Below are positions 1,365 to 5,455 of a DNA stretch of 5,455 nucleotides, piece after piece (positions within the stretch are counted from its first letter, which is position 1; every line of letters begins with the position of its first letter). Source of the stretch: a bacterium (GTDB lineage: Bacteria; Patescibacteriota; Minisyncoccia; Minisyncoccales; DG-74-3); NCBI GenBank assembly GCA_021161025.1, contig JAGHBK010000071.1, positions 1 through 5,455 of the forward strand. The letters are read 5' to 3'. The notes beneath the pieces were generated by a model. It was not told the origin of the DNA, ran no database searches, and saw only the letters and a program-made list of their open reading frames with translations. The translations under genes were made by a program, and so were the position numbers.

Positions 1365-4061
1365 ATGATGGGAGCTAATTTTACCCATAAAGCTCAAGAA
1401 GCAATTTTGAAAGCCCAATCAATTGCTCAAAAAAGAGGACAACAACAAATTGATGCTCTTCATTTACTCTATGCTCTGTTATCCCAAGAGGATAGCATTG
1501 TTTTGAATTTACTTTCTAATTTGGGAATTGATATTGAAGATTTAAAGAAAAAAACTGAAGCCTCTTTAGGAGAAATTTCAGTAATTGTCACTCCTCAAGC
1601 TTTTGGTAAGTTTTATTTAACACAAGACTTAGCAGAAGTTTTAGAAAGAGCTCGTCAAGAATCTTTAAAAATGGGAGATGAATACATTTCCATAGAACAC
1701 CTCTTTTTAGCATTATTAGACACTGATACCAAAGCAAGAGAAATTTTAGAAAAAGCTACTTTCTTAAAACCAGAAGGTGATTTATTAGAGACGGGAGCCT
1801 TAACCTATGAGACCGCCTTGGAACAATTAAAGAAAATTAGAGGAGAGGAAAAAATTACTGATCCTTTTCCAGAATCTAAATATCAGGTTATTAAAAAATA
1901 CACTCGCAATTTAACTGCCTTAGCTAGAAAAGGAAAATTAGATCCAGTTATTGGGAGAGAAAAAGAGATTAGAAGGGTAATGCAAGTTATTTCTCGAAGA
2001 ACAAAGAACAACCCTGTTTTAATTGGGGAGGCAGGTGTAGGGAAAACAGCTATTGTTGAAGGTTTAGCCCAAAGAATTGTTCAGGGTAAAGTTCCTGAAA
2101 GCTTAAAAGATAGAGAAATCATTGCTTTAGATTTGGGAGCTTTGATAGCTGGTACAAAATATAGGGGAGAGTTCGAGAATAGAATGAAAGCTCTTTTAAA
2201 AGAACTCAAAAGGGCAGAGGGTCAATATCTTTTGTTTATTGATGAATTACACACTTTAGTTGGAGCAGGAGCAGCAGAAGGTGCTATTGATGCTTCAAAC
2301 CTTTTAAAGCCCGCCCTAGCTCGAGGAGAATTAAGGGCAATTGGTGCTACCACCTTAAAAGAATATCAAAAATACATTGAAAAAGATCCAGCTCTAGAGC
2401 GACGCTTTCAACCAATTTATGTTGAGGAACCTTCAATCGAAGATACCATTGCTATCTTAAGAGGTGTAAAAGAGAAATATGAGCTTCATCACGGAGTAAA
2501 AATTAAAGATTCAGCCTTGGTAGCTTGTGCAAAATTAGCAGCTCGCTATATTACAGATAGATTTTTACCAGATAAGGCAATAGATTTAATGGATGAAGCA
2601 ATGAGTTCTTTAAGGTTAGAAATTGAATCAGAACCTGCAATCTTAGAAAGCTTATATAACGAAATTAGGAAATTAGAAATTGAAGCAGAAGCAATTAAAA
2701 AAGATAAAAAATCAAGTAGAAGAAAAAAAGCAGTTTCTCGACAATTGGCTGACTTAAAAGAAAAAGCTAAAGCATTTGAGTCAAAATGGAAAGCAGAAAA
2801 AGATACAATTACAAAGATTAAAAAATTAAAAGAAGATATAGATAAAATTCGCTTAGAAATAGAAAGAGGCATTACCAGAGCAGATTTACAAAAAGTGGCT
2901 GAGTTAAAATATGGTCAACTTCCCAAACTTTTAAAAGAGTTAAGAAAAAACGAGAGAAAATTAGCCCGCCTTCAAAAAACTAGACCACTCTTAAAATTAG
3001 AGGTAGAACCTGAGGATATTGCTAAAATTGTTTCTCAATGGACAGGAATTCCTGTAACTAGGCTTTTAGAGGAAGAAGCTAAAAAATTAGAGAAGATGGA
3101 GGAAATTCTCTCAAAGAGAGTTATCGGTCAAGAAGAAGCGATTAAAGCTGTAGCTAATGCTATTCGACGCTCCCGAGCAGGAATTTCAGAAGAGAATAAG
3201 CCTTTAGGCTCTTTCCTCTTTTTAGGACCCACTGGAGTAGGTAAAACAGAAACTGCTAGAGCCTTAGCTGAGTTTTTGTTTAATGACGAAAATGCTTTAG
3301 TTAGGCTTGATATGTCAGAATATATGGAGCGTCACACAGTTTCTAAGATGATAGGTTCTCCTCCAGGCTATGTTGGATATGAAGAGGGTGGGCAACTTAC
3401 CGAAAAGATCCGTAGAAGACCCTATAGTGTTGTATTATTAGATGAGATTGAAAAAGCCCATCCCGAAGTTTTTAATATCTTACTTCAGATTTTAGAAGAT
3501 GGCAGGTTGACTGATGCTAAAGGAAGAGTGGCTTCCTTTAAAAATTGTATTTTAATTATGACTTCCAACGTTGGTTCAGAATATATTTCCAAAATGGGAA
3601 CCCTTGGATTTATGGGAGAGAAAGAGGAAAGAGAAAAAGTAAATCTAAAAGAAAAAGTAATGGAAGCTCTAAAAGAAAAGTTTAGACCAGAATTCTTAAA
3701 CAGAATTGATGAAGTGATTATTTTTAATTATCTTGGCAAAAAAGAAATTAAGAAAATTGTGGAGTTAGAATTAAAGAAAGTGGCAGATCGTCTTGAGCAA
3801 AAGAAAATAAAAGTTCGCTTTACTCCCAAAGCAAAAGAACTCTTGGCAGAAAAAGGTTTTGATTCTAACTTAGGGGCTAGACCTTTAAAGAGGGTTATTC
3901 AAAGGTTGGTTTTAGATCCTTTAGCCCTAAAAATTGTTGCTGGAGAAATTGAAAGCGGAGAGAGGATTCTCGTTGATGTCCAAGCTGGCAAAATCCACTT
4001 TCTAACCTCAAAGGAAATAGCTAAAATCGAAAAGAAAAAGCAAAAGGTTCGAGTAAAATAA
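1365..4061 (+). CDS. clpB: ClpB-type AAA+ disaggregase (Hsp100) with a ClpC-like LGF loop
   Basis: This is a cytoplasmic hexameric ATPase that threads aggregated proteins through its pore, normally with DnaK. Residues 4-150 hold the two Clp N-terminal repeats. AAA-1 (about 185-410) has Walker A GEAGVGKT 221-228, Walker B FIDE 291-294, pore Tyr266 and arginines 346/347 in ERRF. A long coiled-coil middle domain (about 412-545) includes [15 protein letters not shown], matching the ClpB motif. AAA-2 has Walker A GPTGVGKT 621-628, Walker B LLDE 691-694, pore GYVG near Tyr669, sensor-1 Asn735, arginine finger in [10 protein letters not shown] and sensor-2 GARPLKR 837-843. All ATPase residues look intact. 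At 898 residues it is slightly longer than typical ClpB and ends in a Lys-rich tail. The odd feature is LGF at 747-749, where ClpA/ClpC carry the ClpP-docking loop, so a protease partner is possible. ATG 1365 and ATG 1368 are both possible starts; neither has a Shine-Dalgarno sequence, and no CIRCE element is visible upstream. Confidence 0.95.
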
Positions 4062-4070
4062 TTTTAAAAC

Positions 4071-4790
4071 ATGAAAAAGACCATTTTGAAGATTTTAGCT
4101 TTTTTTATTATCGGAATGATAGGAGGTATTTTCGCTGAAGAAATCTTTTGGCCATATTTTGTTGAAAGGCCGTTTTTTTATAAATACAGGTTAGAGCAAA
4201 CTCCAATTTATGTTACAGAGAGAAAAGAGATTACAATTACAGAAAATGTTGCCTTAAAAGAGGCAATAGAAAAAGTTAAAAGTACTGTAATTGGAGTGAG
4301 AACAGAAACTAAAAAAGGAGAAACTTTGGAAGGTTCTGGTTTTGTTTTAACTTCAGATGGCTTAATGGTTACTTTAGCAGATTTAGTTCCCCGAGGATCT
4401 AATTTTTCTTTCTTTGTTGACGGAGAAAAAGTGCATTTTCAGATCTTAAAAAGAGACTTAGAAGAAAATTTAGCCCTAGTGAAAATTAAAAAAGAGAATT
4501 TACCTACAAAAAGCTTTGCTGATTTAGAAAGATTAAGATTAGGAGAGCGGGTGTTTTTAGTAGGGGTGGTTTTTGATACAGAGGGAATACCCAAGAAGGT
4601 GGTAAATGAAGGAATAGTTAAGTCTTTTGATAAAAATTTAATTGAAACAAACATTTTTGAAAACAAAAACCTTCAAGGCAGTGTCTTATTCGATATCGAA
4701 GGAAATATATTAGGAATAAATCAAGTTCAAAAAACAGGACAGGTTACTACTATTCCAATTACTCAGATTAAACAATTTGCTGGGTTTTAA
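4071..4790 (+). CDS. Inactive HtrA-like (trypsin-fold) membrane-anchored pseudoprotease
   Basis: A 239-residue protein with an N-terminal transmembrane anchor (about 5-24), a linker (25-60) and a degenerate trypsin-fold domain (about 60-235); there is no PDZ domain. It aligns with the HtrA protein upstream of the Clp gene, even in the pre-domain segment (ALKEAIEKVKSTVIGV here, EQAIIKVVKETSPSVVGI there), so the two are probably paralogues. Every catalytic position is replaced: TNRHVV becomes TLADLV (His to Asp104), RDIAILK becomes ENLALVK (Asp to Asn133) and GNSGGPLL becomes NLQGSVLF (Ser to Gln202). The structural motifs GSGFVLTSDG and EGNILGIN persist, so the fold seems kept while proteolysis is lost. 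The frame is uninterrupted, which argues against a pseudogene. It begins 9 bp after the Clp stop codon, implying co-transcription, and has no Shine-Dalgarno sequence. A role as an adaptor, scaffold or decoy regulating the active HtrA is inference. The fold call is secure; the function is unknown. Confidence 0.88.
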   Translation: MKKTILKILAFFIIGMIGGIFAEEIFWPYFVERPFFYKYRLEQTPIYVTERKEITITENVALKEAIEKVKSTVIGVRTETKKGETLEGSGFVLTSDGLMVTLADLVPRGSNFSFFVDGEKVHFQILKRDLEENLALVKIKKENLPTKSFADLERLRLGERVFLVGVVFDTEGIPKKVVNEGIVKSFDKNLIETNIFENKNLQGSVLFDIEGNILGINQVQKTGQVTTIPITQIKQFAGF

Positions 4791-4796
4791 CCTCTT

Positions 4797-4834
4797 CAAA
4801 ATTTCTACGATCGTAGAATTTTTGCATTAATAAA
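4797..4834. repeat. Left copy of 38-bp direct repeat with palindromic, Cas12a-handle-like core
   Basis: The 38 bases are identical to 5394-5431. The first 28 (4797-4824) form a near-perfect palindrome centred at 4810/4811: the 16-bp core TTCTACGATCGTAGAA is perfect, one T/T mismatch follows on each side, then CAAAA pairs with TTTTG. The last 10 bases (CATTAATAAA) are not part of it. Similarity to the other copy continues with one gap through TTTTCC to 4842. It starts 6 bp after the stop of the pseudoprotease gene and ends inside the bidirectional terminator, just beyond the 3' end of the Cas2-like gene. Read on the + strand it contains AATTTCTAC-GATC-GTAGA at 4800-4817. A transcript could fold into a 6-bp stem with a GATC loop followed by a T run, so it might also help terminate the upstream operon. 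Confidence 0.93.
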
Positions 4835-4863
4835 AATTTTCCTTATAGGCGGAAAATTTTTTT
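4832..4863. terminator. Bidirectional intrinsic terminator between convergent genes
   Basis: A perfect 11-bp stem, AAAAATTTTCC (4832-4842) with GGAAAATTTTT (4851-4861), encloses the 8-nt loop TTATAGGC. The right arm runs into a T stretch on the + strand, and the mirror-image T run serves the - strand. It therefore suits both the + strand operon ending at 4790 and the - strand Cas2-like gene. The TAA stop of the latter lies in the loop, and its last codons form one stem arm. The stem has only two G-C pairs, so strength is uncertain. The left arm coincides with the tail of the left 38-bp repeat. Confidence 0.7.
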
Positions 4864-5379
4864 AAGATGCAGTTCGTTGTCAATCGACTCTAAGACACAA
4901 AACCTGACAAATTTTCTGAGTTTGAAAAATTCGATTACAAAATTTATTTCGTCCTCACACTCATATGGAAAAATAAACACACTTTTTTGAAGTTCGAAAA
5001 AACCTAATTTTTTTAATTTTTCTCTTAATGCATCTCTACCCCACCTTAATCTTTCGGGAATATCAAAAACTACCATTCTCCATTTTCCATCCCATTTCCT
5101 TTTCTCAATTTTCATTTTTTCAAAATGATAGGTTAGAGCTTTCATTTTTCCTTTATCTGTGAGAAAAAAGGTATAACTTCCGTCAGGATTTCTTTGTTTC
5201 TTTACTAATTTAGACCGATAAAGATTATTAATTTCTTTTTTTAATTCTTCTTCATCAATCTTTTTAAACTCCCGAGAAAGATTTTTCAGAATCCTTTTTT
5301 GACGATAAGGAGAATAGGTAAGACTAAAAGAAGCTCCCGCTAAAAATAAAAGTAAAATTTTCTTTCTTGTTGGAGACAT
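4843..5379 (-). CDS. PaaX-like protein: winged helix plus Cas2-like domain
   Basis: A 178-residue protein. Residues 1-82 resemble a winged helix: RKKILLLFLAG opens helix 1, the EELKKEINNLYRSKLV segment looks like the following helices, and DGSYTFFLTDKGK gives the wing. Residues 98-170 form a Cas2-like ferredoxin domain: WRMVVFDIP with Asp106 at the end of strand 1, an Arg-rich helix RLRWGRDALREKLKKLGF, then QKSVFIFP (131-138), the Cas2 QxSVF pattern. PaaX-family repressors share this arrangement and bind palindromic DNA; such proteins are often annotated as Cas2. I chose ATG 5379 over an in-frame ATG at 5424 because the longer version would translate the repeat and the -10 box. The gene converges on the + strand operon, lies between two 38-bp palindromic repeats and ends within a terminator hairpin. 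A DNA-binding role is likely. Nuclease activity is uncertain, and a spacer-acquisition role is unsupported because no cas1 is visible. Confidence 0.85.
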   Translation of the reverse strand: MSPTRKKILLLFLAGASFSLTYSPYRQKRILKNLSREFKKIDEEELKKEINNLYRSKLVKKQRNPDGSYTFFLTDKGKMKALTYHFEKMKIEKRKWDGKWRMVVFDIPERLRWGRDALREKLKKLGFFELQKSVFIFPYECEDEINFVIEFFKLRKFVRFCVLESIDNELHLKKIFRL

Positions 5380-5386
5380 ATAATTT

Positions 5387-5415
5387 ATTATAACAAAATT
5401 TCTACGATCGTAGAA
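5387..5415 (-). promoter_or_regulatory. Extended -10 promoter of the Cas2-like gene, likely leaderless, overlapping the palindrome
   Basis: On the - strand, TGT-TATAAT (5395-5387) is a consensus extended -10 element. A weak -35-like TTCTAC (5415-5410) lies 17 bp upstream. Only 7 bases separate TATAAT from ATG 5379, so transcription should begin at or next to the start codon, giving a leaderless mRNA. The -35 hexamer and most of the spacer lie inside the 28-bp palindrome of the right repeat, so a protein bound to the palindrome would block RNA polymerase. This favours negative autoregulation. Confidence 0.72.
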
Positions 5416-5431
5416 TTTTTGCATTAATAAA
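5394..5431. repeat. Right copy of 38-bp direct repeat with palindromic, Cas12a-handle-like core
   Basis: Identical over 38 bp and in the same orientation as 4797-4834. The palindrome spans 5394-5421 with its perfect 16-bp core at 5400-5415; AATTTCTAC-GATC-GTAGA lies at 5397-5414. This copy covers the -35 region of the Cas2-like gene. Similarity to the left copy continues with one gap to TTTTCC at 5438, then ends. Only 24 bp of sequence follow the exact repeat before the window edge, too little to see whether another repeat comes next. Confidence 0.93.
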
Positions 5432-5455
5432 CTTTTCCACAGCTTTAGTATTGAC

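Follow-up and report, generated by a model that had tools for sequence, protein, structure and literature searches.

A candidate mobile unit in Patescibacteria: a PaaX-like, Cas2-fold gene bracketed by palindromes

The locus and its protein

The stretch of DNA analysed here, hereafter the window, is 5,455 bp long and makes up an entire contig (G000:C51) of a 419-kb draft assembly that is 64% complete. Two exact 38-bp direct repeats, at 4797-4834 and 5394-5431 and 597 bp apart, each contain the palindrome TTCTACGATCGTAGAA, and only 24 bp of the contig remain on the outer flank of one of them. Between the two lies a minus-strand gene for a PaaX-like protein that joins a winged helix to a Cas2-like fold. 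The repeat downstream of the gene (4797-4834) has its palindrome centred between 4810 and 4811, with the core ACGATCGT at 4807-4814; the upstream repeat (5394-5431) is centred between 5407 and 5408, with the same core at 5404-5411. The original prediction of a gene exactly bracketed by identical palindromic direct repeats is borne out at these coordinates. The 193-aa open reading frame listed for the gene was not retained, as its start falls within the repeat, and because the closest relatives of the protein are ~179 aa long we moved the start to 5379. The gene most likely spans 4843-5379 and encodes 178 aa beginning MSPTRKK, with alternative upstream starts extending to 5424; with the start at 5379, the upstream repeat lies 15-52 bp ahead of the start codon. 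A promoter and terminator of the gene's own had also been proposed, and gained no support from a consensus scan of 4700-5455, in which there was no terminator-like site and a single promoter-like site, within the gene's 3' end. A TATAAT is visible by eye between the upstream repeat and the gene start.

The other genes of the window encode an HtrA-like protease, a ClpB/ClpC-type ATPase (1365-4061, plus strand, from a profile search) and a trypsin-like protein (4071-4790, plus strand, PF13365). The PaaX-like gene is convergent to them, and both the ATPase and the trypsin-like gene lie outside the bracketed element.

In profile searches the protein matches PaaX_M (PF20803) with 80.4 bits against a cut-off of 24 (E 1.1e-22). 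It remains below the cut-offs of the Cas2 models (18.5 against 23.8 bits for PF09827, 22.7 against 24.5 for TIGR01573) and far below that of the PaaX equivalog model TIGR02277 (35.2 against 264.55 bits). Its AlphaFold2 model, with a mean pLDDT of 85.4, finds E. coli PaaX (8a39) as its top structural match in Foldseek, the VapD and Cas2 RNases being also among the matches. Neither the profile searches nor the phage library matched the protein to a known recombinase family; the phage library gave nothing below E 0.06, and a defence library only weak Cas2 and HTH matches. Among the matches listed, the closest named relatives belong to Candidatus Nealsonbacteria and other Parcubacteria-type Patescibacteria, and the names that databases give these proteins, where they give any, are mostly 'Cas2' or 'PaaX'.

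The bracket and its site across the family

The protein was found in 53 of 147 genomes, its own included, and a single genome can have as many as 11 hits. Only three of these 147 genomes gave a Cas1 hit (G019, G044 and G073), two of which, G019 and G073, carry the PaaX-like protein as well; Cas1 was not found in the 64%-complete G000. To the window we added the next best 80 hits from the 147 genomes, and 80 named loci kept from a scan of GTDB genomes that yielded at least 551 relatives. Removing 8 duplicates left 153 elements, of which 3 lay too near a contig end, leaving 150 testable; from the 147-genome search only the best 81 hits entered the test, and a short fragment belonging to a broken copy was omitted. 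An element was scored as bracketed when the local score between its upstream and downstream repeats was at least 25 and both copies were palindromic at 10 or more of 18 pairs. By this strict test 132 of the 150 distinct family members, the window included, are bracketed and 18 are not, compared with 9 of 644 similarly sized other genes within those stretches; when the named loci were tested with a different cut, 62 of 79 were bracketed, against 2 of 393 controls.

The anticipated co-occurrence of repeat and gene is hence a property of the family. The repeats also exceed chance, as had been argued for the window: besides this recurrence, a 27-mer around the palindrome, searched with up to 3 mismatches, had no control matches in the 419-kb assembly. 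Across 1.46 Mb of sequence around 154 loci we counted 161 palindromes with the family core, 149 at elements and 12 outside them (the downstream copy of element L215, at first listed as outside, is counted among the 149), and a Markov-shuffled copy of each stretch contained none. Dispersal of the repeats without link to the gene had been named as grounds for abandoning the idea; single copies do exist, and the great bulk of palindromes nonetheless sits at elements. The same had been said of homologues lacking repeats, which is untrue for most of the family and true for three loci met in a wider sample. PaaX_M genes occur in 90 of 286 genomes sampled across the window's phylum; 8 of the 19 best-scoring of these loci count as bracketed by the strict test, another two score 24 with palindromes evident to either side, and the three in question encode a 237-aa PaaX_M protein and are unbracketed. 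This subfamily (L252, L253 and L260), whose starts resemble MSLSPMQEIF or MPLSPMQEIF, could serve as a natural control group. Viral carriage was rejected; a single relative was found on viral contigs, and it is unbracketed.

The geometry of the site was drawn from 130 distinct bracketed elements, chosen for symmetry at positions 1-18, such that only positions from 19 outwards are free of selection; the window is outside this set, and outside the sets used below for the list of cores, the arms, the partial correlations and the facing of the next gene, because its contig ends too soon. The site measures ~40 bp, with ~20 bp on each side of the centre. Pairing is 0.88, 0.79, 0.97 and 0.93 at the four central positions, 0.62-0.69 at the looser positions 5-8 and 0.78-0.88 at positions 9-17, and falls to 0.37 at position 22, past which the identity of an element's two copies also drops towards background. 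A common core can be written roughly as [GA]CNATNG[CT], with C at position 3 in 98% of sites; among 137 entries (7 of them duplicates) the cores are mostly ACGATCGT, GCTATAGC, GCCATGGC, GCGATCGC or GCTATCGC. The arms, at positions 9-20, are palindromic yet free in sequence, and G-T pairs are rare in them; L161, L210 and L232 are elements with perfect palindromes. Pairing that continues to the very centre would suit duplex DNA read by a dimer, and not a hairpin loop. Centres lie 603-737 bp apart (5-95%, median 645). The two copies are direct in 31 cases, inverted in 27 and equal in 20 (n=78); direct and inverted copies are about as frequent, so that the window's exact direct repeat reflects no general rule. 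At equal offsets of 16-27 bp we saw no target duplication beyond the palindromes. The window's palindrome resembles the stem of a Cas12a repeat (TTTCTAC..GTAGA), a likeness that we set aside, the arms of its relatives being unrelated and Rfam giving no match in the window.

Whilst the core is shared, the arms are private to each element: arm identity is 0.78 within an element against 0.41 when different elements of one genome are compared (57 elements in 20 genomes). Pooled across the family, protein and palindrome correlate with r 0.40, a value reached by none of 2000 permutations; this reflects shared descent in part, which is why we relied on the comparison within genomes and on partial correlations, computed over 114 distinct elements. 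For the arms, the partial correlation with the N-terminal half of the protein is 0.137 (highest of 500 permutations 0.058) and that with the C-terminal half 0.048 (highest permutation 0.064). For the core, it is 0.18 with the C-terminal half, where the highest permutation gave 0.141, and -0.039 with the N-terminal half; in a set with 7 duplicates and a misplaced domain boundary the core signal was 0.123 and did not exceed its permutations (0.181). Arm sequence follows the protein's winged-helix half, and core sequence its Cas2-like half. The expectation that repeat sequence would vary with the protein was in this respect correct.

Placement of the elements and of single palindromes

The elements are patchily distributed and multi-copy, and 5 of 81 hits contain internal stops. 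Two orthologous sites differ in the presence of an element, both in comparisons between species and among draft genomes. In G049 an element lies between ftsK and recA (gene names here and below are by eye), where G020, a member of the same taxonomic order but of a different family, shows a gap of 9 bp without a palindrome. In G076 an element separates a pilD-like gene from a pilin-like one. The corresponding gap in G110, a species of the same genus, is ~100 bp long and contains an unrelated hairpin; one flank of this site is 91% identical between the two genomes and the other 76%. All presence/absence cases are between species, and no movement within one species was seen among these drafts. 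Conversely, many elements are common to a genus at one place, as for G076:C6 and G110:C4, which keep their position at 90% DNA identity, and for elements beside rnhB in five genomes. G033:C8 and G039:C102, from different families, share a 593-bp element with 81% identical DNA and no alignable flanks, and one further pair compared, G038:C62 and G017, had no common flank. The original suggestion of a cassette or mobile unit is the reading that best accommodates the family-wide bracket, the private arms and the presence/absence between related genomes.

Certain neighbourhoods recur. In 14 of 162 stretches (duplicates included), from several lineages, an element lies close to clpB, on either side and strand, and its strand relative to the neighbours is opposite in G000 compared with G123 and L161. 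The gap between mnmA and alaS carries elements in both G076 (C21) and G110 (C30), in the same orientation and with only 33% protein identity. These are unrelated elements, perhaps marking an insertion hot spot or a replacement, and in G048 and G123 the same gap is longer than an element would explain. At G099:C21, compared with G145 and G011, the insertion is 2.7 kb long and holds further genes, and is not a clean gain of a single element. Within it (L078:3361-6115) the element is accompanied by HEAT-like and radical-SAM-like genes (named by eye), which may be cargo between palindromes, and by a partial palindrome, the third of this insertion. In G076 a separate GC-rich dispersed repeat, also identified by eye, adjoins two elements (L059:4815-4930 and L041:2300-2370).

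Palindromes also stand alone. Searching one palindrome in each of four genomes, with up to 3 mismatches, we found 4 places in G000, 3 in the genome of L172, 7 in that of L154 and 2 in G035, the last being only the pair of the searched element. Beside its pair, G000 has two single copies, both of which adjoin promoter-like sequence by eye. One (G000:C4:6741, L142) is centred ~79 bp ahead of P0001, a 191-aa HTH-type gene (by eye); the other (G000:C61:2797, L141) repeats part of the P0001 upstream region with a truncated start. In the genome of L154, three of the seven palindromes are at the element. Of the four others, two are flanked by convergent genes and one separates a tRNA-Leu gene from a convergent gene. 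The three at the element (L154:3981-5440, L250) are near-identical, with a membrane-protein gene in the first pair and the paaX-like gene in the second. In the genome of L172 the third palindrome lies within the rnhB reading frame; the rnhB of G120 is without the palindrome stretch, but this stretch is a loop whose length varies among all five rnhB orthologues compared. The rnhB genes of G035 and relatives (L038 / L169) carry large, variable in-frame loop inserts, some of them alike within one gene. Single sites that fall inside a gene or between the tails of two genes are no ordinary operators; they could be footprints of the unit.

What the unit may do

We favour, with a probability of roughly 0.58, a 0.6-kb unit of a PaaX-like, Cas2-fold gene with private ~40-bp palindromes that is likely mobile between intergenic sites and whose protein is predicted to bind the palindromes. 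The parts of this reading differ in strength: binding of the palindromes by the protein is highly probable, mobility of the unit is probable, and that the protein itself catalyses the movement is doubtful. A dimer would grip the two outer arms through its winged helices, in keeping with the TGATTC-N27-GAATCA operator reported for E. coli PaaX (PMC9493321), which spans 39 bp, and the Cas2-like dimer would sit over the core. Least certain is the step that follows, in which the protein might bring both palindromes together and cut or transfer strands at the core, perhaps by the invariant Asp121, thereby moving the unit, with recombination between the two palindromes leaving a single one behind. 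Could the protein represent a new class of recombinase, a winged-helix Cas2-fold dimer that recognises duplex palindromes of 40 bp and spreads a single-gene element of 0.6 kb through the Patescibacteria, and perhaps a glimpse of Cas2-like repeat handling before or outside CRISPR? The arms would then be a private address and the core the reaction site. We hold this only tentatively and think it rather unlikely; the movement mechanism is possibly one not described before.

Comparison with known systems helps to place the unit. IS200/IS605 elements are ~0.7 kb in length, with one gene, palindromic ends and no target duplication; our unit is like them in size, in its single gene and in its palindromic ends, and showed no duplication beyond the palindromes at equal offsets; it is unlike them in its unrelated protein and in palindromes that look like duplex sites. 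With Cas2 and VapD the family has in common how the C-terminal half is folded, together with an invariant Asp on the first strand of that half, which we take to correspond to the metal-binding Asp of Cas2. Unlike them, the family has an extra winged helix, scores below the Cas2 cut-offs, lacks an array in the window and lives in genomes from which Cas1 is nearly absent. The closest parallel in organisation is REP/RAYT (TnpA-REP, REPtron), described as a gene flanked by two palindromic repeats that co-evolve with the protein, with single repeats elsewhere (PMC2817692, PMC8266576) and usually more than 100 REPs per genome (PMC2817692). Two flanking palindromes, repeats that track the protein and single copies elsewhere are all seen here. 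However, RAYT, a transposase of the HUH type, works on folded single strands, and the protein of our unit is unrelated: its fully conserved columns are G, W, D, R, F, D and R, with neither a His column (highest 32%) nor a Tyr column at 85% or above, and thus neither the HUH motif nor the catalytic Tyr. The palindromes, too, are duplex-like, and far fewer than REPs, with between 2 and 7 places for the palindrome searched in each of the four genomes. By analogy, then, the unit would work like a REPtron without being one, given an unrelated protein, few copies and a site that looks like duplex read by a dimer. In the literature searched, preprints being outside its scope, we found no earlier description of a palindrome-bracketed unit of this kind.

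The main rival is a self-regulating repressor of the PaaX type, with operators around its own gene, single sites as its regulon and a spread owed to ordinary horizontal transfer. The closest structure is indeed a transcription repressor and not a recombinase, which counts against our favoured explanation, and E. coli PaaX is reported to repress its own promoter and to bind the N27-spaced operator (PMC9493321). The window's upstream repeat ends 15 bp ahead of the start codon and the promoter-like sequence at both single sites of G000 points the same way. However, the downstream palindrome is as regular as the upstream one, and the next gene stands tail-on in 47 of 119 distinct elements with genes called on both sides, so that there the downstream copy lies in no promoter. 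Three of the four single sites in the genome of L154 lie between gene tails and one palindrome of L172's genome lies within a coding gene; it would also be odd for regulation if as many as 11 hits within a genome of 0.8 Mb each had a separate set of sites. The unit differs from PaaX itself in length (178 residues against the 305 of 8a39), in its several copies per genome, in a bracket on both sides and in a conserved core in place of N27. We consider the repressor unlikely, if a serious contender.

A second possibility is that a host recombinase acts on the palindromes, which would then be the part that recombines, and that the protein only regulates or protects them. It would account for a protein that matched no recombinase family, and for other genes lying between palindromes, such as the membrane-protein gene of L154 and the radical-SAM-like gene (by eye) of G099:C21. 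A common host enzyme would, however, be expected to keep one site sequence, and the private arms instead track the DNA-binding half of the protein; we think this quite improbable. Were the palindromes RNA hairpins, i.e. terminators or processing sites around a messenger that is cut by a Cas2/VapD-like RNase, the Foldseek matches to VapD and Cas2 would find a natural place; this is very improbable, as the centre is palindromic and best conserved just where a hairpin needs a free loop, G-T pairs are rare, and the window has neither a terminator-like site around the gene nor an Rfam match. Finally, the CRISPR-related locus once envisaged might take the form of an orphan Cas2 from an adaptation module, the two repeats being a degenerate array; this is scarcely credible and was rejected despite weak Cas2 profile matches and NCBI's naming of some relatives as Cas2, since scores are sub-cut-off, Cas1 is in only 3 of 147 genomes against the protein's 53, and as a rule there are just two repeats, ~640 bp apart.

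Mobile DNA is regarded as scarce in genomes of ~1 Mb. If many short PaaX_M genes prove to be palindrome-bracketed units, a whole phylum with genomes of this size would carry an undescribed type of element, and an unrelated protein would be added to the REP-like way of life. Well over 100 natural pairs of protein and site would become available for reading out winged-helix DNA recognition, and Cas2 annotations in CRISPR-free genomes would be corrected. One bracketed copy, L183, lies on a contig binned as Omnitrophota, the result of either transfer between phyla or misbinning.
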